A DNA stretch of 43,816 nt from an uncultured Clostridia bacterium (lineage in GTDB: Bacteria; Bacillota; Clostridia; UBA1212; UBA1255), in contig CANQOI010000014.1 of the NCBI GenBank assembly GCA_947625435.1, positions 1 through 43,816 on the forward strand. Direction: 5' to 3'. Both the position numbers and the translations under genes were made by a program. Shown piece after piece: positions 5,582 through 23,075 of the stretch; the first letter of the stretch is position 1; every line of letters starts with the position of its first letter. The notes beneath the pieces are model-generated. The model had not been told where the DNA came from and did not search any database. It saw nothing but the letters and a program-made list of their open reading frames with translations.

Positions 5582-7045
5582 ATGCAGAAGGATATAATAT
5601 ATATTATGGAACATATTGACAGTGCGAGAGTCGCCGTACTCGGACTCGGCATAAGCAATATGGCGCTCATAAGATTTTTACACGAAAAGGGAGCGCGCTT
5701 TGTTGCGGTCTACGATAAAAATGAGAATGAATACGTTCTTTCGAACTCCCGCGCACTCATGAACGACGGACTCATAAATGAAACGGTCACGGGAGAGGGT
5801 TATCTTAAGGCTCTTTCGGATAAAGAGTATGATGTTATCTTCCGCTCGCCGGGCATAAGGCCGGATCTGCCGGAGCTTGAGTCCGCAGCTGAAAGGGGAA
5901 CCCTGATCTCATCGGAAATGGAGCTTTTCTTCGAGTTCTGCCCCTGTAAAATATACGGTGTTACGGGCAGCGACGGCAAGACCACAACGACCACTCTGCT
6001 ATGGAGACTGCTTTCCGCCGCCTGCGCGAAAAAAGGCAGACGAGCATGGCTCGGGGGAAATATCGGAAGACCGCTGACAGATATTTTACCGGAGATACAC
6101 GATGACGACTGCGCGGTGCTTGAACTCAGCAGCTTCCAGCTCATGACTATGAAAAGAAGCCCGCATGTGAGCATAATAACGAACATAACGCCGAATCATC
6201 TCGATATACATAAGGATTACGATGAATATATAAACGCGAAGAAAAATATTTATGCCGGCGTGGAAAACAGCCTGACGGTGCTCAATGCGTGTAACACGGT
6301 AACAGCGGAGATAGCCGGGAGCCTCATTTCACAGAATCGGAAGGTGAGACTTTTCTCGGCATATCTGTCATCTGCGGAGGAATTCGGCAGCCCCGCCGCC
6401 GATATGCTGGCGTTTGAGAGGAACGGAGTGCTTGAATGGGTGTCCGATACGGTCGGATTCAGAACGGAGAGGGCAAAGCTTCTCGTGCCGGGAAAATACA
6501 ACGCCGAGAACCTTCTGGCGGCGGTCTCGGCGTGCGCCGATGTTATCACACAGTCTGATATAGAAGAGGCTCTGAAAGATTTTAAAGGAGTGGAGCACAG
6601 ATGCGAATTCGTACGCGAGCTTAACGGCGTCAGATATTATAACAGCTCTATAGACAGCAGCCCCAACAGGACGATACACACTCTCACTGTTTTTAGCGGA
6701 AATACAGTCATGATCGCGGGCGGTAAAGACAAGAATATCCCGTACGACGACATAGGCGACGCCGTACTTGACAAGGTGCACACGCTCATACTCACCGGTC
6801 CCACTGCCGGTAAGATAGAAGCTGCCGTAAGAAAAGCCGAAAAAAAACGTACGGATAACGGCGGAAGAACCGGCGGGATACGTATTTTACACGTGAAAAG
6901 CTATGAGGAAGCCGTCTTGAACGCCGAAAAGTACGCGCGCCCCGGAGACACCGTGCTGTTATCGCCGGCGAGCACGAGCTTTGACATGTTCCGGAATTTC
7001 GAGGAGCGCGGGAATGTGTTCAAAAAACTCGTGAATGAGCTGTGA
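5582..7045 (+). CDS. murD: UDP-N-acetylmuramoylalanine-D-glutamate ligase
   Basis: Cytoplasmic Mur ligase that adds D-glutamate to UDP-MurNAc-L-Ala in peptidoglycan precursor synthesis. The 487-residue protein has the N-terminal UDP-binding Rossmann-like domain (VLGLGISNMALI), then the ATP-binding GSDGKTTTT loop with Lys133, LGGNIGRPL, ELSSFQL and NITPNHLDIH. The C-terminal ligase domain includes GVEHRCEFV and ends with LLSPASTSFDMF. It is somewhat longer than the usual ~450 residues. GGAGG lies just before ATG 5582. It stands apart from any mur/fts cluster, alone between the divergent thr operon and the transporter locus. Confidence 0.95.
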   Translation: MQKDIIYIMEHIDSARVAVLGLGISNMALIRFLHEKGARFVAVYDKNENEYVLSNSRALMNDGLINETVTGEGYLKALSDKEYDVIFRSPGIRPDLPELESAAERGTLISSEMELFFEFCPCKIYGVTGSDGKTTTTTLLWRLLSAACAKKGRRAWLGGNIGRPLTDILPEIHDDDCAVLELSSFQLMTMKRSPHVSIITNITPNHLDIHKDYDEYINAKKNIYAGVENSLTVLNACNTVTAEIAGSLISQNRKVRLFSAYLSSAEEFGSPAADMLAFERNGVLEWVSDTVGFRTERAKLLVPGKYNAENLLAAVSACADVITQSDIEEALKDFKGVEHRCEFVRELNGVRYYNSSIDSSPNRTIHTLTVFSGNTVMIAGGKDKNIPYDDIGDAVLDKVHTLILTGPTAGKIEAAVRKAEKKRTDNGGRTGGIRILHVKSYEEAVLNAEKYARPGDTVLLSPASTSFDMFRNFEERGNVFKKLVNEL

Positions 7046-7123: not shown

Positions 7124-7152
7124 TTGACACACTTGCACGAAATCTATATAAT
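7124..7152 (+). promoter_or_regulatory. Perfect-consensus sigma-A promoter of the transporter operon
   Basis: TTGACA (7124-7129) and TATAAT (7147-7152) are both perfect and are separated by 17 bases. Transcription should start near 7159 and continue through the tightly spaced genes to about 20332 or to the terminator at 21917-21954. A promoter this strong without an obvious adjacent repressor gene suggests high expression or control by an unlinked regulator. Confidence 0.9.
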
Positions 7153-7171
7153 CGTTTTGTTTAGATTGCCC

Positions 7172-7218
7172 AAAAATGGCATAGGTGACAGAGCTAATTA
7201 TTTACTCAGCCAATTTTT
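7172..7218 (+). other. Stem-loop in the 5' leader of the transporter operon
   Basis: AAAAATGGC (7172-7180) can pair with GCCAATTTTT (7209-7218) with one bulged base, leaving a loop of 28 bases. It lies between the predicted start and the ribosome-binding site GGAAGG (7222-7227). It matches no riboswitch class I recognise and may simply be AT-rich leader. Confidence 0.25.
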
Positions 7219-7235
7219 CATGGAAGGTTGATCGT

Positions 7236-10200
7236 ATGAATAAGAAAAAAAAGAAGATTATTCGTAATTCAATCATTATAGGCGTGATAGTCGTTGTACT
7301 CGTTGTGGGCATTGCCGTATACGTCGGCAGATCGACGGATGTGTCTCAGTACAGCGTTGTCAATGTCGATGAGATGGATTTCAACCCGTTCGTATTGAAT
7401 GAGGAACGTCTTGACAACAGCTTTCTGGAATACGGAAAGGTTCTTTCGAAGTACGCTTCCAGAGGATACAAGGCATATACAGGGGACGATATACCTGTTG
7501 ATCCGGAAAGCATATCGGGCAAAGACACGGGCACCGAGTCGGGCGAATTCATGATGCTTAACGACGTTGATGAATATAAAGACGGATTTAAGTATACCGA
7601 TGCGGCGGATGATTCCGAAAAGGTGATAACCGCTCAGGAGAGCGGGGACGCGATATACGTATCCGGGACCACCACGGAATTGTCATTTGACGTTACGATG
7701 GATACGGCCGGTCTTTACTCGCTTTATATGGAGTATCTGATGCTCCCCGGCAGAGATGCCGATATGCTCGTAAATATGACCGTTGACGGTAAGCTCCCGT
7801 TCCTTGAAGCGTCGAATATGTCATTCAAGAGGATGTACAGTTTTTATGACTACGATTACGAAACGAACAAGGATGTAGTGGGAAATCAGATACGGCCGAA
7901 GTCACAGGAAAAATACGGATGGCAGTCTATGGTCATGACGAATCCTGACGGACTTTACAGAAATCCGTATAGATTTTACCTTCAGAAAGGTACGCATCAT
8001 ATAGTTCTTACATTTACACGAGAGGCAGGCGCGGTACGTAACATACGTTTTATTGCTCCTGTCGTTAATCCTTCTTATGAGGAATACAAATCACAGAACG
8101 GCTTCTCGGAAGGCAATGTTTATAAAGGCAATGCCATAAAGACAGAGCTCGAGGTTCCCGATTATACTACCAGCATAAACATACGCATGGAGACGGACAA
8201 CAATTATTATACAAGCTCGGATGCGAGTGTGAAGCCGTATAAAGCAACACTTTTCAATATATTCGGCGGCGATCAGTGGGCATCCGGCGGAGATAAGGTC
8301 GAGTGGTCGTTCAATGTTGAAGAGAGCGGATGGTATGAGCTCGGATTCAGATATAAGTCACAGACGACATATGTTTCTTCATTCAAGGAAGTGGCGATAG
8401 ACGGTAAAGTGCCTTTTGCGGAAATGGAAGAGTACTGCTTCACATATGTTGACGGGTGGACGGCGATGTCACTCATGGATGAGAATCAGAATCCTTATCT
8501 GTTCTATCTCGAGAGCGGAGAGCATACGCTTTCTCTTGTAAATAAAGTAGGTCCGCTCCGCCATTCACTTCAGAAGATAGAAGAGTCCATGGACTCCATT
8601 TCAGAACTCGTAAATAATATAGTTAAAATAACCGCTTCCGCGCGTACTTCCTCCGGCGGATACACGGTAGACACGAACAGAGACTATGACCTTCAGGTTT
8701 ATATACCGACGCTCCAACAGGATCTGAATACATATGCCACTACATTTTCCGAATGTTATGAAGACATAATAAAGCTGAACGGCGGCAAGGTCACATCTTA
8801 TGCTTCGGCCGTCAAGGTCGCGCAGGATCTGTTCGAAGACCTTGACGAGAACATAGAGGATGTTGCGATATCGCTCAACGATATCAACAATGCTCAGACA
8901 GGATTGAGTAATACGATGGTATCCATAAGACAGCAGCCCATCGCCGCAGATTATATGGTGCTGGCTCCTCAGGATTATGATTATCCGGACACGCAGAGTA
9001 ATTTCTTCCAGGGACTTTATGTCGGACTGGTGAGATTCTTCTCATCGTTTGACAACAATAAATATGACAATGCCGGTGCGCGTGAGGGCGTCAGCACAGA
9101 GGGTATGCCCGAGATCGAAGTTTACGTGGCAAGAGGCCGTGAGCATGTCGACATAATGAGAAATCTCGTGAGCGAGGAATTTACGCCCGAATACGGAATC
9201 AAAGTAAATATAAACATGGTCGCGGGATCGTCCGAGGGCCTCATAATGCCGCGTTATGTTGCGGGCACTGCTCCGGATCTGGCGATATCCATAACACCGG
9301 GTAATGTATTTGAATTCGGCATAAGAGGCGCTCTCATAGATCTTGACCGCTTCGAAACGACGACTTACAACGGAGCCGAGGTCGTAGGCTTCAGGGATCT
9401 GTGGGAAAGCTCATTCTATGACGCCGAATTTGTACCGTATCTTTATAAGAGCCACTATTACGGTTTCCCCGAAACGCAGACATGGAGTGCTCTTTTCTAC
9501 AGAACGGATATTTTTGATACGCTCGGTTTAGAGCCGCCGGACACATGGGATGACGTTTATAATATTCTTCCTACATTGAACAATAACGGATACAATTTCT
9601 GTTACAATTATGCCGTGGCGGGATATACTCCTTTCCTTTATCAGTACGGCGGTGATTTCTATGATGCCAACGGCATGGTGTCGGGACTCAGTACAGAGCA
9701 GGCATACGACGGATTCATGGAATATGCGGATCTTTACCTGCAGTACAATTTTGTGTATGCCGCCAACTTCTACATGAGATTCAAATCAGGCGAGATGCCT
9801 ATCGGAATAGGCGATCTGACATTTTACCAGCAGCTTAATTATTCGGCACCGGAGCTTAACGGCAAATGGGCGATGGTACCGGTACCGGGTCATAAAAAGG
9901 TTGTGAACGGTGTCGAAGTTGTCGACAGATCGACAAGCGGTCTCGGTACATGCTGCATTATCATAAACAAGGAAAATCAGAGTGAGGAGAGCCGTCACTA
10001 TGAGGAGTCATGGGCATTCCTGCAGTGGTGGCTGTCGGACAGCGTTCAGTCCGAATACGGAAGAGAAGTGGAAGCTACATTCGGAGTGGCATCAAGATGG
10101 AACCCGGCCAACAAGAATGCGGCACAGACACTCCCGTATACGCAGGAGGAACTTGATGTTATAAACGCACAGTGGGAATGGCTCAAAGAATCACCTAACA

Positions 10201-10391
10201 CAATGGGCGGATACTACACATCAAGATATCTGCTTACCGCACTCAATCAGACGGTAATACAGGGACTGAGCGGAAGAATCGCCCTTGAAGATGCAGTTAA
10301 GATAATCAATAAAGAAATGCGCCGTAAACAGGGAGAGTTCGGCGTGCCTGTTGACGGATCCATTCTTTATGAAACCGCGATCGCGGGGTAA
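7236..10391 (+). CDS. Giant membrane-anchored extracellular solute-binding protein
   Basis: A 1051-residue protein with an N-terminal transmembrane anchor (about 10-32, after a run of lysines) and no lipobox, so it is probably held by an uncleaved helix. Residues about 108-280 and 310-445 look like two related beta-sandwich, carbohydrate-binding-like modules: each contains VDGK/IDGK-LPF/VPF, then NPY-x-FYL and G-x-H-x-L. A helical, perhaps coiled, stretch follows (about 445-590). Residues from about 625 to the end are a family 1 sugar-binding protein (IEVYVARGREH, APDLAISITPG, ETQTWSALFYRTD, WAFLQWWLSD). ATG 7236 is preceded by GGAAGG; 17 more in-frame codons upstream lack a ribosome site. 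Two permease genes follow after 14 bases. Usual binding proteins have about 400-500 residues, so the extra 600 are the odd part. The ligand is unknown. Confidence 0.85.
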   Translation: MNKKKKKIIRNSIIIGVIVVVLVVGIAVYVGRSTDVSQYSVVNVDEMDFNPFVLNEERLDNSFLEYGKVLSKYASRGYKAYTGDDIPVDPESISGKDTGTESGEFMMLNDVDEYKDGFKYTDAADDSEKVITAQESGDAIYVSGTTTELSFDVTMDTAGLYSLYMEYLMLPGRDADMLVNMTVDGKLPFLEASNMSFKRMYSFYDYDYETNKDVVGNQIRPKSQEKYGWQSMVMTNPDGLYRNPYRFYLQKGTHHIVLTFTREAGAVRNIRFIAPVVNPSYEEYKSQNGFSEGNVYKGNAIKTELEVPDYTTSINIRMETDNNYYTSSDASVKPYKATLFNIFGGDQWASGGDKVEWSFNVEESGWYELGFRYKSQTTYVSSFKEVAIDGKVPFAEMEEYCFTYVDGWTAMSLMDENQNPYLFYLESGEHTLSLVNKVGPLRHSLQKIEESMDSISELVNNIVKITASARTSSGGYTVDTNRDYDLQVYIPTLQQDLNTYATTFSECYEDIIKLNGGKVTSYASAVKVAQDLFEDLDENIEDVAISLNDINNAQTGLSNTMVSIRQQPIAADYMVLAPQDYDYPDTQSNFFQGLYVGLVRFFSSFDNNKYDNAGAREGVSTEGMPEIEVYVARGREHVDIMRNLVSEEFTPEYGIKVNINMVAGSSEGLIMPRYVAGTAPDLAISITPGNVFEFGIRGALIDLDRFETTTYNGAEVVGFRDLWESSFYDAEFVPYLYKSHYYGFPETQTWSALFYRTDIFDTLGLEPPDTWDDVYNILPTLNNNGYNFCYNYAVAGYTPFLYQYGGDFYDANGMVSGLSTEQAYDGFMEYADLYLQYNFVYAANFYMRFKSGEMPIGIGDLTFYQQLNYSAPELNGKWAMVPVPGHKKVVNGVEVVDRSTSGLGTCCIIINKENQSEESRHYEESWAFLQWWLSDSVQSEYGREVEATFGVASRWNPANKNAAQTLPYTQEELDVINAQWEWLKESPNTMGGYYTSRYLLTALNQTVIQGLSGRIALEDAVKIINKEMRRKQGEFGVPVDGSILYETAIAG

Positions 10392-10405
10392 GGGAGTGAT
10401 ACTTT

Positions 10406-11383
10406 GTGAGTAATAAAGAAGAGAGAAATAACAAAAAGAAAAACACCGACATGCCCGCTGCTCCCAAGAAAAGATTTTTCAATGTGGAGAAGAGATTCGG
10501 ATATACGATTCATGAAATGTGGACACATAAGATGTCGTACGGACTTATGGCTCCGTTCTTCATACTCTTTATCACGTTTTCATTGATACCTCTTCTGTGG
10601 TCCACGGGTCTCAGCTTTACATATTGGAATATATTTGAGTCTCCGAGATGGACCGGACTGAACAACTATGTATATCTGTTTGTTGATGACTCGCTGTTCC
10701 TGAAGGCGTTTACCAATACGCTCACATATGCGGTCATAGTGGGTCCTGTTTCATATCTCATGTCCTATTTTATAGCATGGTTCATAAATCAGGTTCCGAA
10801 CAAGATAAGGCCTCTTTACGTACTTGCGTTCTATGCTCCCGCCCTTACGAGCGCGATCGCCATGCAGGTCGTATGGTCTGTCATGTTTTCAAACGACAGC
10901 ACAGGATATCTGAACTCGTTACTTCTCAATCTTGGGTTGATCTACGAACCGATACAATGGCTGCAGGATGTAAATTACATAATGCCCGTCATAATCATTG
11001 TTGCCTTGTGGTCAAGCTTGAGTACGCAGTTCCTGGCATTTGTTGCCGGCTTCAGAGGCGTCGACAGAGAACTGTACGATGCGGCTGCGGTTGACGGCGT
11101 AACATCAAGATTCCAGAAACTGTTATATGTTGACGTTCCTCAGACAATGCCGCAGCTCCTTTTCTCGGCTGTTATAACGATAACAAGCTCATTTACTGTC
11201 GGACAGACGATCGTTGCCCATCCGAGCCCGGAAGATTCCGCTCTTACGATAATGCTTCACCTGAGTGACTACTCCGGTACACGTTTTGAGGTTGGATATG
11301 CTTCCGCGATAGCGGTCGTGCTTTCGGTCATGATACTCGGTATCGGACGTGTGGCATTTAAAGTCTTAGGCGAGAAGGAGTGA
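10406..11383 (+). CDS. Sugar ABC transporter permease, MalF/UgpA type (importer 1)
   Basis: A 325-residue integral membrane protein with about six transmembrane helices. The ATPase-contact (EAA) loop is DAAAVDGVTSRFQKLLYVDVP, typical of CUT1 carbohydrate importers. A basic, low-complexity cytoplasmic N-terminus of about 40 residues precedes the first helix. The start is GTG, with GGGAG nine bases upstream. It pairs with the MalG-type permease that follows four bases later, and presumably with the large binding protein just before it. No ATPase is encoded nearby. Confidence 0.9.
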   Translation: MSNKEERNNKKKNTDMPAAPKKRFFNVEKRFGYTIHEMWTHKMSYGLMAPFFILFITFSLIPLLWSTGLSFTYWNIFESPRWTGLNNYVYLFVDDSLFLKAFTNTLTYAVIVGPVSYLMSYFIAWFINQVPNKIRPLYVLAFYAPALTSAIAMQVVWSVMFSNDSTGYLNSLLLNLGLIYEPIQWLQDVNYIMPVIIIVALWSSLSTQFLAFVAGFRGVDRELYDAAAVDGVTSRFQKLLYVDVPQTMPQLLFSAVITITSSFTVGQTIVAHPSPEDSALTIMLHLSDYSGTRFEVGYASAIAVVLSVMILGIGRVAFKVLGEKE

Positions 11384-11387
11384 TGAT

Positions 11388-12257
11388 ATGTTTCAGGTTG
11401 ACGTCGATTATTTAAAAAAAGCTAAAAAGCGAAGAGACCGCGGCAAAGTTGTTATAATATTATTCCTTACTTTAATGGGAGTCTTCTTCCTGCTTCCTTT
11501 GGTTTATCTGTTCTGTACTGCATTTAAACCGCCGGAGGAACTGTTCCTGTACCCGCCTACGTTCTTCGTTAAGAATCCTACAATACAGAATTTTAAGGAC
11601 CTTACGGCGATAACTGCCAACAGCGCAGTGCCTTTTTCAAGGTATCTTTTCAACACAGTGCTTATCACGGTATCGTATATATTCTGTCTTGTTCTGATAT
11701 TGACTATGGCATGTTATCCTCTTTCAAAGCATAAGTTCCCCGGACGTGACGGACTTATGGGCCTTGTGACTACATCGCTTATGTTTGTTGCAGCCGCAGC
11801 TGCCATACCGCAGTACCTTATCATAACAACACTGCATATTGATAACACGTATCTGGTATATATCATACCGGGCCTTGCGAACACGACGTGTCTGTTCCTG
11901 ATGAAACAGTTTTTGGATACTGTTCCGAATGACATATTTGAAGCAGGAAAGATAGACGGCGCATCTGAATGGCAGTTATATACAAAGATAGCTATCCCGC
12001 TTCTGAGAAACGCACAGGCAACCGTGATCATACTCACATTCGGCGGCATATGGGCAGATGCCAGTACATCTACCACTTATATTTATAAAGAGCAGCTCAG
12101 AACGCTCGGATTCTTTATGAATACGATAGGAGGCGGAATTGCCAGAACGGGCGCCGCTGCCGCATCTTCGCTCATTATGACGCTGCCGAGCATCATCATA
12201 TTTATAATACAGCAGAGCCGTGTTATGGATACGATGGCGCATTCGGGTATTAAATAA
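11388..12257 (+). CDS. Sugar ABC transporter permease, MalG/UgpE type (importer 1)
   Basis: A 289-residue CUT1-type permease with about six membrane helices and the EAA loop EAGKIDGASEWQLYTKIAIP. AAGGAG lies seven bases before the ATG and overlaps the end of the preceding permease, which suggests translational coupling. It forms the heterodimeric channel with the preceding gene product. The C-terminus is MDTMAHSGIK, as expected for MalG-like partners. The next gene starts 15 bases later behind GGGAGG. Confidence 0.9.
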   Translation: MFQVDVDYLKKAKKRRDRGKVVIILFLTLMGVFFLLPLVYLFCTAFKPPEELFLYPPTFFVKNPTIQNFKDLTAITANSAVPFSRYLFNTVLITVSYIFCLVLILTMACYPLSKHKFPGRDGLMGLVTTSLMFVAAAAAIPQYLIITTLHIDNTYLVYIIPGLANTTCLFLMKQFLDTVPNDIFEAGKIDGASEWQLYTKIAIPLLRNAQATVIILTFGGIWADASTSTTYIYKEQLRTLGFFMNTIGGGIARTGAAAASSLIMTLPSIIIFIIQQSRVMDTMAHSGIK

Positions 12258-12272
12258 AGGGAGGCAGAGAAC

Positions 12273-14459
12273 ATGAAATTCAAAAAATTTACAGCTCTGG
12301 TTCTGATGTTTTCAATGATCTTCTCGATGGGCACTGCGGTTTTTGCCGAAGAGCCGTATCCTAGTTATATATTGAACACATCGGATTATGACACTTATTC
12401 GAAGCCTATACCCGCACCTTATACAACGCTCACCGTAATAGATTTTAATTCAAAAGAGGCCGGCAAGCTGTCCAATCCGGAAGACATGTTCATTGACGAT
12501 GAAGGTAAGATTTATGTGGCCGACACCGGAAATAACAGGATCGTTGTATATGACAGCGACTACAGCTTCCTGTTTGAGATCAGCAGCACGGGACTGTACA
12601 GCGAAGGAGATCTGTCGGCGCTTAAAGAACCTAAAGGCGTATATGTGAATCCGGATGACGGTGCGATAATAGTAGCGGACTCCGGCAATTCCAGAATCGT
12701 GGAATTTACCAAATACGGTAATCTGCGCTATTCATATCCGAAGCCCGAGGATGAGCTTCTTGCAGCAGATTTTTCATATCAGCCTATCAAAGTCACCAAA
12801 GATACGAGAGGCTTTATGTACGTTGCCAATAACGGTGACAGCAACGGTATCATGCAGCTCAGTTCCAACGGTGAATTTATCAGTTATTACGGAACGAACA
12901 AAGTAAATCTCTCGTTCTGGGAATCTCTTTCAAGAATGCTGTGGAGCAGGGAAGACCGACTCGGTACCGTTGTTACTCTGCCTTACACGTTCACGAACAT
13001 TTATTCCAGTGATGACGGATATATGTATGCGACGACCACCACGGAGACTCCTCCGCAGGTGCGTAAGATAAACATAGGCGGTTCCGATGTTATTTATGCC
13101 GCGTACGATTTCAGGGATATGAGTATAAACGGATACTCGCAGTACAACCAGGTGTTCTGCGATGTGACGGTTGATAAGTATAATAACATGCTCATTGTTG
13201 ACCGTATGTTCGGCCGCATATATGAATACGACGAGAGAGGAAATAACTTGTTTGCCTTCTCGACAAGAGGTACGGGTTACGGACAGCTCTCATATCCTAT
13301 AAGTATTGAGACCGACAATCGCGGCAGAGTCTATGTATTAAACAGATCTTCCGGAAATATAACCGTTTATGAACCGACAGAATTCGCAAACCTCGTACAT
13401 GAAGCAAATTCTCTTTATACTGCCGGCAGATATGAAGAGTCCATGGTTCTGTGGGAGCAGGTTCTTGAAAGAAGCAATTACTACACGTTGGCTCTTATAA
13501 ACATGGGTGATATACTCATGCGTGAAGCGAGCCTCATAAATACCGAAACCGCGAATACTTCGGGAGGATCGGGCACAGAGGCGGAGAATCCGCGCGCGGA
13601 TCTGACGGAAGCGGAGCTCTACGATATGGCTATCGATTATTTCTATGAAGCCGAAAATACAGAGCATGCATCTGAAGCTTTTGAAGAAATAAGATCGATA
13701 TTCCTCAGAAATCATTTTACTACGATAGTAATTGTCGTTGTCGTTCTGTTGCTCGTCTGGGTGGCGTGGACGTCGATCAAAAGAGCAAGAAGACGAAAAT
13801 ACGGGCCTCCTAAAGAAAGGCATAATGCGTGGACCGTCATAACGGGCTTCTTTAAACGGGTAGGCGGTGTGATGCGGCATCCTATTGACGGCTTTGAAGG
13901 AATAAGATATGAGAATCAAGGATCGTATCTCGATATGTTCTTCATAATGTTACTGTACGGACTTATGACCGTTGCAGGCAGATATGCCGTGAGCTTTATA
14001 TACAGAGGAGGTACACCTCTCAGCGTGATAAGGCCCGTCAGTGTATTCTTCTATTCGCTTATTCCTTGGATAGTCGTGTGTGTCGTCAATTACGGAGTTA
14101 CGACTATTATGTACGGTGAAGGCCGGTTCAGGGATGTCATAATAGGCGGTGCATACTGTCACGGACCGCTCATGTTCCTTATACTGCCCGTTTCACTTCT
14201 TACACATGTCCTTACTAATAATGAGGCTTCGATCTATTCGATACTCGAGATGCTGATTTATCTGTGGACTGTTCTGCTCGTGTATTTCTGTATGAAGGGA
14301 GTTCACGGCTTCCACCCTGTTAAAGCGTTTGTCGTATTCATACTGACAGCACTCGGTGTCGCAGCAGTGGCATTACTCTTCTTTATTGTATACGGACTCG
14401 CAGTGCAGATGTTTGACTTCATTGCACAATTCGTTAAGGAGTTGATTTATCTTGCTTAA
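12273..14459 (+). CDS. NHL beta-propeller / TPR / Yip1-like membrane protein
   Basis: A 728-residue multidomain protein. A signal peptide (about 1-25, ending VFAEE) leads to an extracellular NHL-repeat propeller (about 55-365) with repeats such as IYVADTGNNRIVVY, IIVADSGNSRIVEF and RVYVLNRSSGNITVY. A TPR-like helical pair follows (about 370-460). A single helix (482-502) and a basic stretch lead to a Yip1-like bundle of four or five membrane helices (about 530-728) containing HPIDGFEGIRYENQGS. Propeller and TPR should face outside; the basic stretch after the helix should be cytoplasmic. It lies between the two permease pairs and overlaps the next gene by 8 bases, so it is probably a dedicated partner of this transport system. 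The function is unknown; sensing or a scaffold for the binding proteins is speculation. Confidence 0.75.
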   Translation: MKFKKFTALVLMFSMIFSMGTAVFAEEPYPSYILNTSDYDTYSKPIPAPYTTLTVIDFNSKEAGKLSNPEDMFIDDEGKIYVADTGNNRIVVYDSDYSFLFEISSTGLYSEGDLSALKEPKGVYVNPDDGAIIVADSGNSRIVEFTKYGNLRYSYPKPEDELLAADFSYQPIKVTKDTRGFMYVANNGDSNGIMQLSSNGEFISYYGTNKVNLSFWESLSRMLWSREDRLGTVVTLPYTFTNIYSSDDGYMYATTTTETPPQVRKINIGGSDVIYAAYDFRDMSINGYSQYNQVFCDVTVDKYNNMLIVDRMFGRIYEYDERGNNLFAFSTRGTGYGQLSYPISIETDNRGRVYVLNRSSGNITVYEPTEFANLVHEANSLYTAGRYEESMVLWEQVLERSNYYTLALINMGDILMREASLINTETANTSGGSGTEAENPRADLTEAELYDMAIDYFYEAENTEHASEAFEEIRSIFLRNHFTTIVIVVVVLLLVWVAWTSIKRARRRKYGPPKERHNAWTVITGFFKRVGGVMRHPIDGFEGIRYENQGSYLDMFFIMLLYGLMTVAGRYAVSFIYRGGTPLSVIRPVSVFFYSLIPWIVVCVVNYGVTTIMYGEGRFRDVIIGGAYCHGPLMFLILPVSLLTHVLTNNEASIYSILEMLIYLWTVLLVYFCMKGVHGFHPVKAFVVFILTALGVAAVALLFFIVYGLAVQMFDFIAQFVKELIYLA

Positions 14460-16956
14460 GAAAAAGGATAAAAACCAAGACGTAAACAAAGATATACCTG
14501 CATATGAGAATACTAAAAGAGCTAAGGTCGCAAAAGTAGTCAAGATCGTCGTGCCTATAGTGTTGGTACTCGTACTCGCATTTATAATTTTCGAGGTAGC
14601 TACGAGCGACGGACATAAGGTTGTATTCAAAAAGGACGGATTGGAAAGCTCGAGGCAGCTCGCCGCAACCGATACTTCGAAGGGCATAAACGGACAGATG
14701 CTGCAGGATCAGGGTATGACGCTTGTCGCAGAAAACGATTTCCTTAAGCTCAGCTTCTCGAATAAAGAAAATCTGTTCATTATCGAAGACAAGATAAACG
14801 GCGAAGTATTCCGCTCTTATCCCGAGCCTATATATGAGCAGGGACTCGAGGAAGGAGGAGCATCTGACGTAGCCGCCTATGATCTGTCGACCGAAACAGG
14901 ACAATTTATCACATCCCCCGTATTTGTAGGATATACAAAGTCCGGTATGGACGGCGGATTCGTACTCGGAGTGAATCAGATGCCTCATGTCAAAACCGTT
15001 TACTTTATAGAAAACGGCATCAGGCTTCACTATGAGATGAAAGAACTCGAGCTTGAATTCTCCGTTGAGATCACGATAGAAGACAATGAGCTTGTATACA
15101 GGGTTCCCGTTAACGGGATCATTGAACGTGAAACATACGAGTGGGAAGAAGAGGACAGGAGACCGTTGCTGATGTCAATAAGCGTGCTTCCGTATCTGGG
15201 AGCGCACAGGAGCACTCAGAAGGGATATTTTGTTGTGCCGGACGGTTCGGGAGCACTCACTTATTTCGATGTTCCGAGGATCACGAACTACAATGAATAT
15301 TCCAAGCATGTATACGGAACGGATCAGACATTTGATACTTCGGAGAATCCGAGTTACAACGATCAGATAGTAAGCATAGGCGCATACGGAATTGTTGAGA
15401 ACATGGACGGCGACGGGGAAAATAATATCAACGTCTCCGCAAATTCAATGATGACTTCATTTATCGTTGAAGGCGATGCGGATGCAGATCTTAAAATATC
15501 GAATCCCGGCATAAGGAGCCTGCCGTTTTACGCGATATACTTCCAGTACAATTACAGGAATTTCTATAAGCTGCAGATATCGAATTCCGGAACGCAGTAT
15601 GATATGGTCGTGAAGGATATGCAGATAGGTGATGTAGAGCAGCGCATAAGGATCGATACGTCTGAGAATGAGACTTACTCGTATGTCAATGTTGCAAAGA
15701 TAGTGCAGAATAAGCTTATAGATCAGTGGAATGCGCGTTACGGCGAGTCTGTTTCTTTAGGATCCGCCAATGCCGATGTTCCTGTCATGAATGTTAAGAT
15801 GTTCATGGGAGCCGAGAATATATCCGGAGGCGTACTCAATCAGTTGACCGTAATGACCGATTATGAGGATGTTCAGAACATATATAACGAACTCAGTGAA
15901 ATGGGCGCGCCCGAAATAAGGATTTCACTTCTCGGTTGGCAGAATGACGGATATTTCTGGAATTCAACGACAAAACTCAAACCGGACAGCTCATACGGAA
16001 GCAAGGGAGACTTTAAGGACTTGCTTAAGTGGGCTAAGGATAAGGGAATAGAACTGTCTTTGGACAATAATCTCCTCATCGTATACGGTGAGCCGAAAAA
16101 CGGCGCTACACTGCGTAATTCAATAGTTAAGAGCGCAAATACATTTTACGTGAACTATTGGCGGCGCTCCACATCGGGTATGTTCCTGGCTGACGGAGAA
16201 TACTATATCATGAGTCCGGATTATTTCGAACAGGAATTGCTTGAAGATGCCATTGAGAGACTTACCGATTACGGTGCGTCCAATGTCGATCTCCAGCAGC
16301 TCGGGAATATGGTATATTCCGATTACAATGAAGAGCATCCGCTTCACCGTATTCAGTCTATAAACAGATATGTACAGTGGCTGCGCTCATACGGAGAAAA
16401 GTTTGATAAATTAGCTGTATACAACGGCAATGCGTACGCCGTACCTTTCGTTGATACGATAGTGGATATGCCTGTAGGCACATCTTCGCAGATAGTGCTC
16501 GACGATGATATACCGTTCATGCAGCTTGTTTATCACGGAATAGTGAATTATTATTCGCTGCCGGTGAACAGTCAGCCGTATGAAGAGTTTTACACACTTA
16601 AATCCATTGAGTACGGGTCTTTGATGTCGTACGAGATAACCGAACAGGAAACGAGTGAACTTTTCTACACATATTATGACAGTCTCTACCGTTCCGAATA
16701 CAACAACCTTAAAGAAGAGATCGTTGAACGGTATAATATCACAAATGAAGCGGTCAAGCCGTTTGCATCACTTGAAATGACAGATCATTACAGAGTGGAC
16801 GATGACTACGATGTGTTCTGTACTGAATATTCGGACGGGACCAAGGTATATGTCTGCTATGAGACGGGTAATGTGTCCGTTACGGACAGCACAAACGGAA
16901 GGACGATCTCGTTTGACGGAAACGGATATCAAATTTTACAGAAGGGAGGGGAATAA
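14452..16956 (+). CDS. DUF5696-like membrane-anchored protein
   Basis: An 834-residue protein with a basic N-terminus, one transmembrane helix (about 29-49) and a large extracellular part. I recognise it as resembling the DUF5696 family by memory of its VVPDGSGALTYF-type segment (near 260) and its neighbours. Residues from about 450 (ISLLGWQNDGYFW, WAKDKGIELSLDNNLL) look like a TIM-barrel fold, as in glycoside hydrolases, but no catalytic pair can be assigned. The start is TTG 14452, inside the end of the previous gene, with AAGGAG 10 bases upstream; no in-frame ATG lies nearby. The 8-base overlap indicates coupling to the NHL/Yip1 protein. It may bind or process the imported glycan at the cell surface; this is inference. 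Confidence 0.7.
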   Translation: MLKKKDKNQDVNKDIPAYENTKRAKVAKVVKIVVPIVLVLVLAFIIFEVATSDGHKVVFKKDGLESSRQLAATDTSKGINGQMLQDQGMTLVAENDFLKLSFSNKENLFIIEDKINGEVFRSYPEPIYEQGLEEGGASDVAAYDLSTETGQFITSPVFVGYTKSGMDGGFVLGVNQMPHVKTVYFIENGIRLHYEMKELELEFSVEITIEDNELVYRVPVNGIIERETYEWEEEDRRPLLMSISVLPYLGAHRSTQKGYFVVPDGSGALTYFDVPRITNYNEYSKHVYGTDQTFDTSENPSYNDQIVSIGAYGIVENMDGDGENNINVSANSMMTSFIVEGDADADLKISNPGIRSLPFYAIYFQYNYRNFYKLQISNSGTQYDMVVKDMQIGDVEQRIRIDTSENETYSYVNVAKIVQNKLIDQWNARYGESVSLGSANADVPVMNVKMFMGAENISGGVLNQLTVMTDYEDVQNIYNELSEMGAPEIRISLLGWQNDGYFWNSTTKLKPDSSYGSKGDFKDLLKWAKDKGIELSLDNNLLIVYGEPKNGATLRNSIVKSANTFYVNYWRRSTSGMFLADGEYYIMSPDYFEQELLEDAIERLTDYGASNVDLQQLGNMVYSDYNEEHPLHRIQSINRYVQWLRSYGEKFDKLAVYNGNAYAVPFVDTIVDMPVGTSSQIVLDDDIPFMQLVYHGIVNYYSLPVNSQPYEEFYTLKSIEYGSLMSYEITEQETSELFYTYYDSLYRSEYNNLKEEIVERYNITNEAVKPFASLEMTDHYRVDDDYDVFCTEYSDGTKVYVCYETGNVSVTDSTNGRTISFDGNGYQILQKGGE

Positions 16957-16959
16957 TGC

Positions 16960-17853
16960 ATGGCTAAACAACAGATTAAGGCTAAGAAAAAGCTTGCCCA
17001 TAAGCGCACATTAGGCAGTATTATTTCCTTTGAAAGGAGAAAGACGATTGAAGGCTGGGGTTTCGCTCTCCCGTGGCTTATAGGTTTTGTGATGTTTACA
17101 CTCATACCGCTTGTATTGTCTATCAGGATCAGCTTCTTTATCACGCAGCTGACGGACCTGTATGGCTTTGAAGGCCACAGTCAGTGGGTCGGATTCCAGA
17201 ATTACAAGGATATCATTCAGGATCCGAGCGTAGGCGAGGCCGTGTTCAATTCGTTTGCCAATGCATTGTACCAGGTTCCCATAATTGTCTTCTTCGCGCT
17301 TTTTGTTGCTGTTCTTCTGAAACAGAAGTTCCCGGGCAGAGTATACTTCAGGGTCATATTCTTTATACCGGTAATACTCGCGGGTGTCATAATGAGCTAT
17401 CTGTTCAATGACGGCGTCGGAAGCGTAAATGTTTTCGGAAGCATTGTGAGCAACAGCTCCGGATGGATGGGCAACATTCTCGGAGGCAGATTGACACAGT
17501 ATATAGGAAATATAATGTGGAGCAGCAGTGTTGAGATACTTATTTTCCTTGCAGCCCTTCAGAGCGTTCCCGATATACTTTATGAGGTTGTTGAACTGGA
17601 CGGCGCCTCCGCATGGGAATCATTCTGGCATGTAACCCTGCCTTACATATCACCGTTCGTGATACTTAATTTTGTATATGCGCTCGTCGATTCGTTTGTG
17701 AAATATGACAATCCTATAATGAGTATGATGAAACAGATGACTGATACAGGTACGAAATACGGTATGGCATCGGCTCTGAGCTGGATGTATATGCTCATGT
17801 CGCTTCTTACGATACTGATATTCATACTTCTTACGAGGAGGTGGCTCAGATGA
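16960..17853 (+). CDS. Sugar ABC transporter permease, MalF/UgpA type (importer 2)
   Basis: A 297-residue permease with about six membrane helices. The EAA-type loop is EVVELDGASAWESFWHVTLP, typical of CUT1 importers. GGGAGG precedes ATG 16960, three bases after the DUF5696-like gene. Its last codons overlap the ATG of the next permease (ATGA). It is not a recent copy of the 10406 permease: the two differ over most of their length, so this is a second, distinct importer in the same operon. Confidence 0.9.
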   Translation: MAKQQIKAKKKLAHKRTLGSIISFERRKTIEGWGFALPWLIGFVMFTLIPLVLSIRISFFITQLTDLYGFEGHSQWVGFQNYKDIIQDPSVGEAVFNSFANALYQVPIIVFFALFVAVLLKQKFPGRVYFRVIFFIPVILAGVIMSYLFNDGVGSVNVFGSIVSNSSGWMGNILGGRLTQYIGNIMWSSSVEILIFLAALQSVPDILYEVVELDGASAWESFWHVTLPYISPFVILNFVYALVDSFVKYDNPIMSMMKQMTDTGTKYGMASALSWMYMLMSLLTILIFILLTRRWLR

Positions 17854-18818
17854 CTAATGCGATACGCAGAACAGTGGATTTTGTGCAGCGCTATATTGAC
17901 AGATACCGCAATTTGGGCTATAAGGCAAAGAAAAAGATACGCTTTATAATAGGAAGGATATTCCTGTATTATGTGCTGATAGAGCTCGCATATCTGTTCC
18001 TGCTGCCGTTCATATACATTCTGACAACGTCTATGATGTCTTACCAGGACTATCTGGATCCTACCGTCGAGTGGATACCGACTGCTTTTGAATGGAAGAA
18101 TTTCAAGGATGCGTGGATAGGGCTGAATTATCCGAGAGCGTTCCTTAATTCGCTTGTCACTTCATTGGGAAGCGCTTTGTTGCAGGCGGTATCGTGCGCG
18201 ATAATCGGTTACGCTCTGGGAAGATTCCGTTTCAAAGGCAAGACATTGCTGTTTGTTTTAGTCATACTTGTACTGCTCATACCGCCTCAGACGACCATAC
18301 TTTCTACTTACGGTGTGTGGGCAACGTTCAGCATGACAAATACGTATTTTCCTATACTGGTGCCGGCTCTGTTCGGTCTGGGACTAAGAGGAGCCTTGTT
18401 CGCGCTGATATATATGTACTTCTTCCAGCGTGTGCCGGATGCAATGGATGATGCCGCGCGTATAGACGGTGCCGGTCCGTTCAGAGTATTTATACAGATA
18501 ATGCTCCCTCTTGTTAAGTCGGCCATTTCAATAGTGTTCATATTCTCTTTTGTGTGGCATTGGAACGACAATTACGAGGCGCCTACGTATATGTATAATC
18601 AGGAAATGCTCACGCTTCAGCCGAAGTTGGAGAAAATACAGCAGTACTATTCCGAAGCTTTGGGGTATTCCGGTGAAGCGAGTGACTTTGAAAAGGCCAT
18701 GACCGAGCCTATGCTCTTCGCAGGATGTCTCCTCACGCTGCTGCCCGTGCTGATAGTCTATATAGCAGGACAGAATAAGCTTGCGTCGGGTATCGAGCGT
18801 CTTGGCGTTATAGAATAA
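17850..18818 (+). CDS. Sugar ABC transporter permease, MalG/UgpE type (importer 2)
   Basis: A 322-residue permease with about six membrane helices and the EAA-type loop DAARIDGAGPFRVFIQIMLP. A GTG three codons upstream is in frame but touches the ribosome site; AGGAGG (17836-17841) lies eight bases before ATG 17850, which also overlaps the previous stop as ATGA, so I chose the ATG. Residues about 240-280 between the last helices are longer than usual (QYYSEALGYSGEASDFEKAM). It pairs with the preceding permease; a lipoprotein binding protein follows 14 bases later. Confidence 0.9.
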   Translation: MTNAIRRTVDFVQRYIDRYRNLGYKAKKKIRFIIGRIFLYYVLIELAYLFLLPFIYILTTSMMSYQDYLDPTVEWIPTAFEWKNFKDAWIGLNYPRAFLNSLVTSLGSALLQAVSCAIIGYALGRFRFKGKTLLFVLVILVLLIPPQTTILSTYGVWATFSMTNTYFPILVPALFGLGLRGALFALIYMYFFQRVPDAMDDAARIDGAGPFRVFIQIMLPLVKSAISIVFIFSFVWHWNDNYEAPTYMYNQEMLTLQPKLEKIQQYYSEALGYSGEASDFEKAMTEPMLFAGCLLTLLPVLIVYIAGQNKLASGIERLGVIE

Positions 18819-18832
18819 CGGAGGTTGTTTCT

Positions 18833-20332
18833 ATGTTAAGTAAATTGCGCAAAACCGCTGTATGCATGATCTCGCTTGTTATCGCTTTTTCCATTGTGGG
18901 GTGCAGCGGAAGCAAGAAGCAGAATGACAGCGGGTCAGGTTCTGCGGTGAACTATATTCCGGAAGATCTTGCAGGCAATCTTGTGCTTTCCGGATATTCC
19001 AATTATGAAAATGACAACGATCTGTTCTTCTTTGCTCAGGCATTCGCCCTTCAGTATCCGAGCGTCGACGTTCAGATAGATAACGGATATTCGTACGATG
19101 AGTATATAGAAACGCTTGACGATAGGATCATGAGCGGAGATATAGGCGATGTGATCGTCATACCTTCAAGCAAGGTCGCGGAGTACGCGGAGAAGGGTTG
19201 GATACTTGACCTCAGTGAAGATGCCTACGGCGTGATAGATTATACGGCAACGAGCTATAAACGCCTTTATCCGTCCGCCATATTTATGGAAGCGGCCTAT
19301 TCCGCCGCGATGTATGACGGAAGGTTCTATATGTGTCCGACGGAATACCTTAATCAAGCCGTCATACTGAATCTCGATATGCTTGATAAGGCGGGGATCG
19401 AGAATCCGGTTCCTAAAGACGACTGGACATGGGACGATCTGATCTCGTATGCCGAGGCTCTTTCGGAGCACGGCTGTGAAACTCCTGTCCTGATGAATTA
19501 TTCCGATTATTCGATTTGGGGCACATTTGCCAGAGGCTTCGGAGGAAATCTCTACAGCGACGTTGATTTCGCATCGAAAAATGTCGAGCTGGATCTGACA
19601 GACCCTAATGTAATAGAAGGCTTTAAATATCTCGCCGACAATTTTCTGAGAACGGGGTATGCGTCCGAAAAGCAGACAAAGGATGTATCGGCCGACGAGC
19701 TTTCAAAATACGGGATAATAATCGCGGATCATGCCGATGTGGTCAGATGGCAGAAGGCTCTGTCTGAGAGTACGGATGAAGGCGGCTTCAATTGGGAATT
19801 CGCCCATATGCCGGGATTCAAGGGAACAGACGAGAACGGCAAGGAGATCGTTATTAAAAATATAGGAGTCGAGGCACTGGGGCTTGCGGTCATAAATCAT
19901 GATGTTGTGGATGCTTTGAGCGGCAGCGGCGCCGATGATATAGAAATGACGGATGAAGAACGCCAGGAGGCTGAAGAAAACAGAAAGAGCACAATAAAAA
20001 ATGCCAAGACGCTTGCCCTGTATGCGATGGTCGAGGATGCGGCCGTTGCTTACTGCGGGAGCGGAGGATACAAAGTACCGGCTCTCAAATCGGCTAACCT
20101 GATGAAATTCTGGCGTGAATATCCTCTGTCCGGTAAGAACACATCTGTTTTCTCACTGTATTCGGCTTCGGATTATCCGGCGGTCATCACATCGTTTATG
20201 TCATGGAGCGCGTCAGGTGAGATCACGGACAATATTGCGGAAATATTTAATAAATATGCCGCCGATACGAGTCTTGAACACATAGATGATCTTGTACAGG
20301 AGATACAGGATGCTGCCAATGCGAATCAGTAA
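18833..20332 (+). CDS. Extracellular sugar-binding lipoprotein of ABC importer (importer 2)
   Basis: A 499-residue family 1 solute-binding protein. The signal peptide ends in the lipobox IVGC with Cys24, so it is membrane-anchored by lipid. The mature part shows familiar features of this family: an N-lobe with LVLSGYSNYEND, GDIGDVIVIPSSKVAEYAEKG, then a hinge region with CPTEYLNQAVILNLDMLDKAG and DDWTWDDLISYAEAL. GGAGG lies before the ATG. It follows the second permease pair by 14 bases, and is the normal-sized counterpart of the giant binding protein that opens the operon. The ligand cannot be deduced. Confidence 0.9.
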   Translation: MLSKLRKTAVCMISLVIAFSIVGCSGSKKQNDSGSGSAVNYIPEDLAGNLVLSGYSNYENDNDLFFFAQAFALQYPSVDVQIDNGYSYDEYIETLDDRIMSGDIGDVIVIPSSKVAEYAEKGWILDLSEDAYGVIDYTATSYKRLYPSAIFMEAAYSAAMYDGRFYMCPTEYLNQAVILNLDMLDKAGIENPVPKDDWTWDDLISYAEALSEHGCETPVLMNYSDYSIWGTFARGFGGNLYSDVDFASKNVELDLTDPNVIEGFKYLADNFLRTGYASEKQTKDVSADELSKYGIIIADHADVVRWQKALSESTDEGGFNWEFAHMPGFKGTDENGKEIVIKNIGVEALGLAVINHDVVDALSGSGADDIEMTDEERQEAEENRKSTIKNAKTLALYAMVEDAAVAYCGSGGYKVPALKSANLMKFWREYPLSGKNTSVFSLYSASDYPAVITSFMSWSASGEITDNIAEIFNKYAADTSLEHIDDLVQEIQDAANANQ

Positions 20333-20352
20333 TGACGGCATCAGGGCCACTT

Positions 20353-20410
20353 TGCAAAACGTTTAATATGTTTTTAATATTTTGTAAAGTCGCATTCAAT
20401 TTGAATTGCA
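20353..20410. promoter_or_regulatory. Two dyad elements before the third binding protein
   Basis: The first element, GCAAAACGTTTAAT (20354-20367), holds an AAACGTTT palindrome and matches about 10 of 14 positions of the cre (CcpA) consensus, so it is a weak LacI-family-like site. The second is a perfect dyad ATTCAA-T-TTGAAT (20394-20406). Both lie just upstream of the promoter at 20426-20455. Carbon control would suit a sugar-binding protein, but neither site is strong. Confidence 0.3.
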
Positions 20411-20425
20411 CGATGCTTTTTAATA

Positions 20426-20455
20426 TTGACAAATGTATGCCGTGAGGAGTAATAT
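20426..20455 (+). promoter_or_regulatory. Internal sigma-A promoter for the third binding protein
   Basis: TTGACA (20426-20431) is perfect, and TAATAT (20450-20455) lies 18 bases downstream with four of six matches. The 201-base gap before the third binding-protein gene is the only large gap in the locus, which supports separate or extra transcription of that gene. Confidence 0.65.
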
Positions 20456-20533
20456 CTAAACATATCGTAATGCATACAGGTATATTTATTAAGGTAGTTG
20501 GTATTTTATTATATAACAGGAGGTTTAATGACA

Positions 20534-21889
20534 ATGAAAAAGTACTTAAAAAGTACAGCGGTGATTGTGCTTGTCATTGCAATGACGTTTGCAATGCTCG
20601 CCTGCAGTAAACCGCCGATCGTGAGTCAGGAAGAATTTGAAAACGCCGAAGAGAACGGCGTAGCTGAAGGCGATGTAATGTTTACATATTCGCCCGCTTC
20701 AATGAGTGCTGACTATAAAGCAGCCGCGGATAATTTTATTAACGCATTTGAAGCAAAATATCAGAATGTAAAGGTTGAACGCGATTACACAGCTACTTCC
20801 GATGCCAGAATAGCATCTGCGGAAATAGGAGATGTTTTCTATTTTGCCGAGGTTTCAACGTACAAGTATGCCGTTACCGACAGAGCTTTACTTCCTCTTA
20901 ACGGATTCCTTGATAATTTTGATATAGACCAGAGCGATGTTTACAGCGGTATCTACCGTCTCGGATTGGTAAACGGCCGTCTGTATTTCGTACCGAGAGA
21001 CTACAACCATGTTGTATTTATTTACAATAAGTCGGCTGTCACGGAAGCCGGTCTCAATGCGAGCGTTGTGCCTGATTGGACATGGGAAGGATTCCAGACA
21101 CTGGCTGCACAGCTCTACGATGAGAACGGAGATTATTATCCGCTCAGCTACAACATGACAGAATCTTCGAGATTTGTTCCGTTCTTTGAAGCTTACACTT
21201 CATCGAGAAGCGCATGGTGCGATACGGCTACTAAGAAGATAACATTTATAGATGATGAAGGCCTTATACTCCGCGCAGTGGGCGAGCTGCTCGACATGGC
21301 TGCACAGGGACAGGTCCTGATACCCGGCGTTAACCAGGGAGCCGACAGCTTTAAGGGCAAGCAGGCCATATTCAGCGATATCGTTTATCCTAATGTTCAG
21401 ACTTCCGGTAAAGAATTCGACAACAGGAATGTTGACTGGGATCTTATAAATATGCCTTTGTTCCAGAATCCTTCGTTCGGATGCGGCGCTTCGGGCGTTG
21501 GCGTTTTCTCAAGAACGAGAAATGTTGCAGGTGCTGCGGCTCTTGCTCTGTTCTTCCTTACACCGGAAGGCCAGCGTGCATTTAACTCAGGTAAAGGCGG
21601 TTCTGTTCCGCTTCTTAAATCACTCGATGTAGAAGGGTACAATGCATGGAAGTATCCGGACGATCCTGACTGGAGCGGAAAGAACTGGGATGCATTTGTA
21701 TATCTTGCGGATACGGCTTCTACGCCTGCACAGGTAAACTGCAGAATGCCTATAGAGGTTGCTGAGATAATAAGCAGGAATATTACTTCCATTTTGTCAC
21801 AGGATCTGAAAGGATCACAGGATTATGTAGACGGATTCAGAGCTCTTGAGACACAGTGCAATGAGACATGGTCCAAACTCAGTATTTAG
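20534..21889 (+). CDS. Extracellular sugar-binding lipoprotein (third binding protein)
   Basis: A 451-residue family 1 solute-binding lipoprotein with lipobox MLAC (Cys24). Family-typical segments include VMFTYSPASMSADYKAAADNF, RDYNHVVFIYNKSAVTEAGL, VPDWTWEGFQTLAAQLYD and ALALFFLTPEGQRAFNSG. The start is ambiguous: AGGAGG (20518-20523) lies 4 bases before ATG 20528 and 10 before ATG 20534; I chose the second. It ends with a double stop (TAG TAA). It has its own promoter yet shares the locus terminator, so it may be made in excess over the permeases, as is common for binding proteins. Whether it serves importer 1 or 2 cannot be read from the sequence. Confidence 0.88.
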   Translation: MKKYLKSTAVIVLVIAMTFAMLACSKPPIVSQEEFENAEENGVAEGDVMFTYSPASMSADYKAAADNFINAFEAKYQNVKVERDYTATSDARIASAEIGDVFYFAEVSTYKYAVTDRALLPLNGFLDNFDIDQSDVYSGIYRLGLVNGRLYFVPRDYNHVVFIYNKSAVTEAGLNASVVPDWTWEGFQTLAAQLYDENGDYYPLSYNMTESSRFVPFFEAYTSSRSAWCDTATKKITFIDDEGLILRAVGELLDMAAQGQVLIPGVNQGADSFKGKQAIFSDIVYPNVQTSGKEFDNRNVDWDLINMPLFQNPSFGCGASGVGVFSRTRNVAGAAALALFFLTPEGQRAFNSGKGGSVPLLKSLDVEGYNAWKYPDDPDWSGKNWDAFVYLADTASTPAQVNCRMPIEVAEIISRNITSILSQDLKGSQDYVDGFRALETQCNETWSKLSI

Positions 21890-21916
21890 TAACGCATCGA
21901 TCTTGTGTCAGTAATC

Positions 21917-21954
21917 TTATCCCGCGCAGACATTGTACTGCGCGGGATAATTTT
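21917..21954 (+). terminator. Rho-independent terminator of the transporter operon
   Basis: A perfect 13-bp GC-rich stem (21917-21929 with 21938-21950) with an 8-base loop is followed by TTTT. It lies 28 bases behind the last binding-protein stop and immediately next to the end of the convergent YlbJ-like gene. It could also hinder read-through from that side, although the minus-strand tail has no T run. Confidence 0.92.
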
Positions 21955-23006: not shown

Positions 23007-23035
23007 TTGTGTTTTGGCAATTTTCATTGTATAAT
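23007..23035 (+). promoter_or_regulatory. Candidate sigma-A promoter for the 23076 gene run
   Basis: A perfect TATAAT (23030-23035) lies 17 bases after TTGTGT (23007-23012), which matches the -35 at its first three bases only. The predicted start, near 23042, supports translation from ATG 23076 rather than from codons further upstream. Confidence 0.55.
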
Positions 23036-23075
23036 TTATCGGAAATACAGATCTTGTGAGTGGGTAAGACAGCGT

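Follow-up and report, generated by a model that had tools for sequence, protein, structure and literature searches.

Organization of the locus

The window analysed here is a stretch of 43,816 nucleotides from an uncultured Clostridia bacterium (contig CANQOI010000014.1 of assembly GCA_947625435.1), and it contains a gene cassette with the sequence features of a CUT1 sugar importer whose ATPase would be supplied in trans. The host genome is 2.03 Mb and 98% complete, with the locus on contig C14. Nine tightly packed genes, all on the forward strand, lie between murD on one side and a converging gene for a Gate-domain protein on the other. The first encodes a giant solute-binding protein (SBP). 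Permeases A and B come next, then proteins of the NHL/Yip1 and DUF5696 types and permeases C and D, and the last two genes encode the additional binding proteins SBP2 and SBP3 (Table 1). Pfam models identified SBP_bac_1 in two of the nine proteins, BPD_transp_1 in four, NHL together with Yip1 in one and DUF5696 in another, while the sole match of the third binding protein was a weak one to TIGR03850. The permeases, binding proteins, NHL/Yip1 and DUF5696 listed in the initial annotation are therefore all present; its tetratricopeptide repeat (TPR) label was not upheld, with no TPR family matching at E 0.01.

Three start sites were revised. Read from the sequence, the giant SBP begins at ATG 7236 with GGAAGG upstream, replacing GTG 7185; permease D begins at ATG 17850, which creates a 4-base ATGA overlap with the preceding gene; and SBP3 begins at ATG 20528, preceded by AGGAGG. 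With these starts the first three junctions are gaps (14, 4 and 15 bases), followed by an 8-base overlap, a 3-base gap, a 4-base overlap and finally a 14-base gap, in agreement with the overlaps of 4-8 bases and gaps of 3-15 bases first described up to position 20332. SBP3 may have a separate promoter, judging by the 10/12 match at 20426-20455. No ATPase, regulator or recognisable hydrolase is encoded within the unit. The same had been said of ATPases, regulators and clear catalytic enzymes when the locus was first annotated, and the DUF5696 protein indeed lacks the Asp/Glu pair of glycoside hydrolase (GH) family 129.

Table 1 Features of the locus and standalone DUF5696-family proteins used for comparison (positions in the window unless a locus is named)
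Feature	Position	Strand	Basis
Promoter-like site TTGACA-17-TATAAT	7124..7152	+	12/12 matches, sigma-70-type
Giant solute-binding protein, 1051 amino acids	7236..10391	+	Pfam SBP_bac_1, PDB profile, AlphaFold model
Permease A, MalF-like CUT1	10406..11383	+	BPD_transp_1; GlcT/UgpA-like; own clade 100/100
Permease B, MalG-like CUT1	11388..12257	+	BPD_transp_1; UgpE/MalG-like; EAA loop; own clade 99/91
NHL beta-propeller, helical linker, transmembrane helix and Yip1 membrane domain	12273..14459	+	Pfam, transmembrane pattern
DUF5696, membrane-anchored GH129/GH101-type fold (predicted)	14452..16956	+	Pfam, PDB profile matches, fold matches
Permease C, MalF-like CUT1	16960..17853	+	BPD_transp_1; tree clade
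Permease D, MalG-like CUT1	17850..18818	+	BPD_transp_1; ATGA overlap with C; own clade 100/97
Solute-binding lipoprotein 2 (SBP2)	18833..20332	+	SBP_bac_1 E 3e-16; lipobox IVGC
Promoter-like site upstream of SBP3	20426..20455	+	10/12 matches
Solute-binding protein 3 (SBP3)	20528..21889	+	Weak TIGR03850 match; many relatives within the order keep it following SBP2
Intrinsic-terminator-like hairpin, 13 pairs and T-run	21917..21950	+	Sequence
Standalone DUF5696-family protein	L090:7004-8761	-	
Standalone DUF5696-family protein	L091:6243-7961	+	
Standalone DUF5696-family protein	L092:7118-9001	-	
Standalone DUF5696-family protein	L094:6881-8722	-	

A gene block conserved in two phyla

Among 58 relatives, DUF5696 was present in 43 and an NHL/Yip1 protein in 38. 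Across 391 genomes spread over the class, with scoring limited to the two or three top candidates in each genome, 79 contained a full DUF5696 protein, 78 NHL/Yip1 and 79 the giant SBP. Of the 81 genomes with at least one of these proteins, 76 had all three; among the five exceptions, several have low completeness or matches cut at contig ends. DUF5696 lies within 3 kb of 89 of the 94 NHL loci; the candidate limit per genome partly explains DUF5696 loci without a listed NHL protein. These figures sustain the initial proposal that the two large membrane proteins belong to the system. It had been reasoned that homologues of the two found mostly away from permeases would speak against this, and they were found almost only with permeases.

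Named carriers were collected by scanning GTDB species genomes with a five-sequence alignment, and the best 80 of 418 relatives were inspected. These 80 include Paenibacillus, Cohnella, Lederbergia, Gracilibacillus, Halalkalibacter, Caldicoprobacter, Lachnospiraceae, Halanaerobiales and four Treponema metagenome-assembled genomes (L160, L168, L170 and L174), in which the block resides in a Gram-negative spirochaete lineage. The cassette is also carried by a record named Bacillus subtilis strain DE0224 (L152); the B. subtilis control genome has no DUF5696 match, and the record name is probably wrong.

In the fetched loci with NHL and DUF5696, the order SBPbig-A-B-NHL-Yip1-DUF5696-C-D on a single strand is the same as far as the contigs reach, and it recurs in Paenibacillus, Cohnella, Bacillaceae, Clostridia and Treponema. 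In relatives NHL and Yip1 are mostly two separate genes; the window's order and some others have them as a single fused gene. All seven scored families are present at 61 of the 80 named loci. Within the block the median intergenic distance is 4 bases, with 20 bases or fewer at 417 of 481 junctions. An MsmX-type ATPase inside the block is absent from all 80 named loci inspected, so the ATPase-free neighbourhood is not peculiar to this genome; a unique rearrangement here would have undermined the original reading. The same order in two phyla, which rules out a unique rearrangement or a chance operon, together with near-perfect co-occurrence places the arrangement far beyond chance.

The permeases are of the CUT1 kind, comprising MalF-like (A and C) and MalG-like (B and D) partners with a BPD_transp_1 domain. 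EAA-type coupling loops are found in B, C and D, and a variant EAG..DG loop is found in A of relatives (ESG..DG in L099). In a tree of 87 rows, A, B and D each form one branch (support in Table 1), as does C save for two fragments of a broken permC (L169); 100/100 is listed for the C rows with the fragments. The four permeases form separate deep clades, which rules out a recent internal duplication of one pair. Treponema (L160) pairs with the same Eubacterium (L171) in all four clades, with a bootstrap of 100 in each. The shared pairing fits a joint move of the genes and suggests that the whole block was transferred.

The block could also be read as two ordinary, independent CUT1 importers in one operon (SBPbig-AB and SBP2/3-CD), with NHL/Yip1 and DUF5696 acting as accessory surface receptors or regulators outside the transport complex. 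At two loci (L150 and L157) the halves SBPbig-A-B and NHL-Yip1-DUF5696-C-D stand in swapped order, indicating that the block consists of two modules; the second module occurs without an adjacent first module at several loci, and extra SBPs flank 69 of the 80. Yet the modules are nearly always together in two phyla, and giant SBP, NHL and DUF5696 are almost never apart. Moreover, family distances co-vary: in 61 cassettes, correlations of 0.81-0.95 were obtained between the pairwise distances of the seven families; shared descent contributes to these values, which are supportive rather than decisive. We consider two independent importers possible but unlikely.

A glycosidase fold without the catalytic pair

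The DUF5696 protein matches only PF18952, with E 9e-129 and 431 bits against a gathering cut-off of 25.6. A profile built from 27 cassette members matched GH129-like DagB (5opq, E 1.5e-8) and the GH129 enzyme NagBb (5wzq, E 3.7e-6). An AlphaFold model was obtained from an alignment of only 27 sequences, with a mean predicted local distance difference test (pLDDT) score of 72 and mostly higher values in the TIM barrel. The model gave fold matches to 5opq (E 2e-30), NagBb (E 1e-24, TM-score 0.7 on the target) and GH101 (E 4e-17). The predicted architecture, a beta-sandwich followed by a TIM barrel and a C-terminal beta domain, is that of the GH129 fold.

The catalytic glutamate of NagBb, which we take to be Glu478, lies 43 residues after Asp435. 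The latter is the catalytic aspartate of NagBb, and DagB, composed of a beta-sandwich, a TIM barrel and an Ig-like domain, is active though it keeps just one of the two NagBb catalytic residues (PMC5698469). The curated GH129 model PF11308 gave no match in 200 genomes of the phylum, nor did the controls give one; since this search yielded no GH129 proteins, standalone DUF5696 paralogues served as the reference for the catalytic pair. Both Asp and Glu are present in four such proteins from the same class (Table 1), and in L092 they are 43 residues apart, as in NagBb; standalone paralogues cross-match GH101, GH129 and DUF6259 models. These four are probably active, uncharacterised glycosidases.

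In the window's protein, by contrast with these paralogues, Gln616 occupies the Asp position and residues 655-662 include no acidic residue, leaving the GH129 pair absent. Among 108 cassette DUF5696 proteins, 55 have Asp in the Asp column and the others mainly Thr, Gln or Ser; the Glu column varies among Asp, Tyr, Glu, Asn and Ser. Despite the loss of the pair here and in most copies, the fold and W496, R633, N706 and E720 are kept. From these sequence features, the cassette subunit likely binds glycan.

Alternatively, DUF5696 may be an active glycosidase that relies on other catalytic residues and shortens oligosaccharides where they enter the importer. It shares its fold with the active GH129 and DagB enzymes, the latter working with a single residue of the NagBb pair; both Asp and Glu are retained in 13 of the 108 copies, and D684 (0.96) and E720 (0.97) are nearly invariant. 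On the other hand, the substitutions at the Asp position and the scatter at the Glu position speak against this reading, and E720, equally conserved in the standalone paralogues that keep the pair, need not replace it. Some activity may persist, as DagB shows the same fold working with other residues, but a working glycosidase appears quite unlikely.

Giant binding protein and beta-propeller

The giant SBP (SBP_bac_1, E 3e-19) has a single N-terminal transmembrane helix. In its AlphaFold model (pLDDT 72) this membrane helix is followed by a pair of beta-sandwich domains and a long helical stretch, and the SBP domain lies at the C-terminus. The SBP domain matches 5ysb, a structure linked to beta-1,2-glucooligosaccharide binding, by profile (E 1.3e-24), and fold matches agree; Pfam, profile and fold all identify the extracellular sugar-binding protein expected of a CUT1 importer. 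The resemblance of the sandwiches to CBM35 is weak, the CBM_35 match (E 1.5e-4) being below cut-off. In the NHL/Yip1 protein, the NHL repeats (E 3e-17) match solved propellers, and the Yip1 domain (PF04893, E 1e-10, 42.1 bits against a cut-off of 28.6) has several transmembrane helices. One related genus encodes a protein of 696-724 amino acids after SBP3 (L065:17353-19443, L087:14645-16819 and L088:4170-6299); the two copies scanned (L065 and L087) matched no Pfam family.

An orphan ATPase elsewhere in the genome

Exactly one gene in the host genome contains OB_MalK. It encodes 370 amino acids on contig C11, where no permeases adjoin it and its neighbour, named by eye from the sequence, is presumably an isocitrate-dehydrogenase-like gene. 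The protein exceeds the UgpC-subfamily cut-off of 432 with a score of 493 and carries K43, D77, R104, E110 and K154, of which the last four are residues reported for multitask ATPases (PMC7658222). An OB_MalK gene was found in 50 of the 58 relatives. The cassette thus has the features of a multitask-ATPase client: no ATPase in its operon, an orphan UgpC/MsmX-type ATPase elsewhere, and the four residues in that ATPase. This lends substance to the early suggestion that the missing ATPase is tolerable through MsmX-type sharing. Taken with the coupling loops in the permeases, the ATPase-free block and the orphan multitask-type ATPase make it plausible that this single MsmX/UgpC-type protein would power the importer.

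Genomic neighbours and possible substrates

At 40 of the 80 named loci the block is adjoined by one of eight hydrolase families (GH10, 43, 53, 9, 26, 2, 30 and 113), and in further loci sampled GH36, GH38, GH5, GH67 or a pectate-lyase-like protein adjoins it. SBPs adjoin 69 of the named loci and LacI-type regulators 25. The hydrolase genes beside the block point to plant hemicellulose and related glycans as ligands in those lineages. For the host genome, a search for GH43 and GH10 found neither, with a single weak GH5-like match, and hemicellulose as its substrate, though likely in relatives, is unsupported. Our guess is that the host cassette takes up oligosaccharides released by other microbes.

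Other genes near the cassette were noted. The murD gene (window 5582-7045) is directly upstream, as it is in several families of the order and not in more distant loci inspected. On the other side (window 23007-25687), a gene for a 528-amino-acid protein without a Pfam match has a 4-base overlap with a leucine-rich-repeat protein gene, and Maf and GTPase genes adjoin. In one genus of the window's order an AlgX-like SGNH acetyltransferase is encoded upstream of the cassette (L072:204-2087).

Within this order the cassette might serve the cell envelope, in recycling or sensing of surface glycans, rather than food uptake. The recurrent murD neighbour, the AlgX-like protein and the absence of GH10 and GH43 from the host genome would all suit such a role. 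However, the murD linkage is limited to the order and may be passive, and relatives elsewhere sit in plant-glycan operons. We regard an envelope function as improbable.

A model for the cassette

Taken together, these results lead us to favour, as somewhat probable, a model in which the locus encodes a CUT1 importer of oligosaccharides that draws on an ATPase in trans and whose enlarged extracellular assembly includes an obligatory pseudo-glycosidase and a propeller. The computed basis for this is gene content, order and co-occurrence, the four permease families, the folds, the loss of the pair and the one ATPase elsewhere in the host genome. From knowledge of the family we infer import as the direction, an oligosaccharide as the ligand and MsmX as the motor. 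By extension, all parts might join in one complex, and both DUF5696 and NHL might bind glycan.

In this importer the anchored giant SBP would use both its beta-sandwiches and its SBP domain to catch glycan. A fixed outer scaffold would be formed by the NHL propeller, which Yip1 would hold, together with DUF5696 on its membrane tether; lacking the GH129 pair in most copies, DUF5696 would grip and orient the chain without cutting it. Two MalFG-type pairs, AB and CD, would then move the ligand across the membrane with energy provided in trans by the cell's single MsmX/UgpC-type ATPase, and the extra binding lipoproteins would bring further ligands.

Several observations weigh against this model. 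The 13 of 108 cassette DUF5696 proteins that retain Asp and Glu, and the 55 that retain Asp, may include active enzymes, and the acid/base column of the alignment is not firmly aligned. A few cassette genomes have no OB_MalK match, which incomplete assemblies or an overlooked divergent ATPase could explain. Finally, with no GH43 or GH10 in the host genome and no hydrolase adjoining its cassette, the substrate of the relatives may not apply here.

A stronger version, which we hold to be doubtful, is a single stable complex in which four permeases, the giant SBP, an NHL/Yip1 tower and a dead GH129 subunit thread plant glycans with long or branched chains across the membrane of Gram-positive cells. 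If true, this would be an importer class with an obligatory pseudo-glycosidase and a long-chain role like that of SusCD in Bacteroidota.

Comparison with known systems

The cassette apparently represents a widespread sugar-uptake machine that is so far undescribed. In the open-access literature searched, with subscription papers outside the search, DUF5696 is unnamed and the gene set undescribed, in line with the initial remark that no function had been described for this combination. The gene set is fixed in hundreds of species, among them plant-biomass degraders (Paenibacillus, Caldicoprobacter and Cohnella), gut Lachnospiraceae and Treponema, while two of its parts are currently annotated merely as a domain of unknown function and as 'Yip1'. 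Our model proposes a shared, testable role for these two function-unknown families, which co-occur in hundreds of Gram-positive and some spirochaete genomes. That a glycosidase fold has been kept next to a transporter even as its catalytic pair is lost suggests that an ATP-binding cassette (ABC) importer has recruited it as a subunit for glycan binding. The usual picture of a CUT1 importer has one SBP, two permeases and two ATPases; if the parts described here cooperate, that picture misses a common larger form, and culturable carriers exist for testing.

The closest functional parallels are the MsmX-dependent CUT1 importers of B. subtilis (AraNPQ, GanSPQ, YesOPQ, YtcPQ-YteP and MelECD), which likewise combine a permease pair and an SBP with no ATPase in the operon. 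These have one permease pair and one ordinary SBP, and are not known to include a giant SBP, NHL, Yip1 or DUF5696. As for the host, their orphan multitask ATPase is encoded elsewhere and carries D77, R104, E110 and K154 (PMC7658222). The cassette DUF5696 has the beta-sandwich, TIM barrel and C-terminal beta domain in common with NagBb (5wzn, profile E 4e-6) and DagB (5opq), but differs in its N-terminal membrane anchor, its place in a transporter operon and the absence of the Asp435/Glu478 pair in 95 of 108 copies. The GH101 endo-alpha-N-acetylgalactosaminidase has a related fold (E 4e-17) and a Pfam cross-match in the standalone paralogues; unlike the cassette protein, with which it shares ~10% identity, it is secreted and active and has no transporter partner. 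Lin1841 (5ysb) and CbpB (7x0i) resemble the C-terminal SBP domain of the giant protein, which adds ~600 N-terminal residues and has a membrane anchor in place of the lipobox. To our knowledge, the invariant extra parts of the cassette are shared by no known importer.

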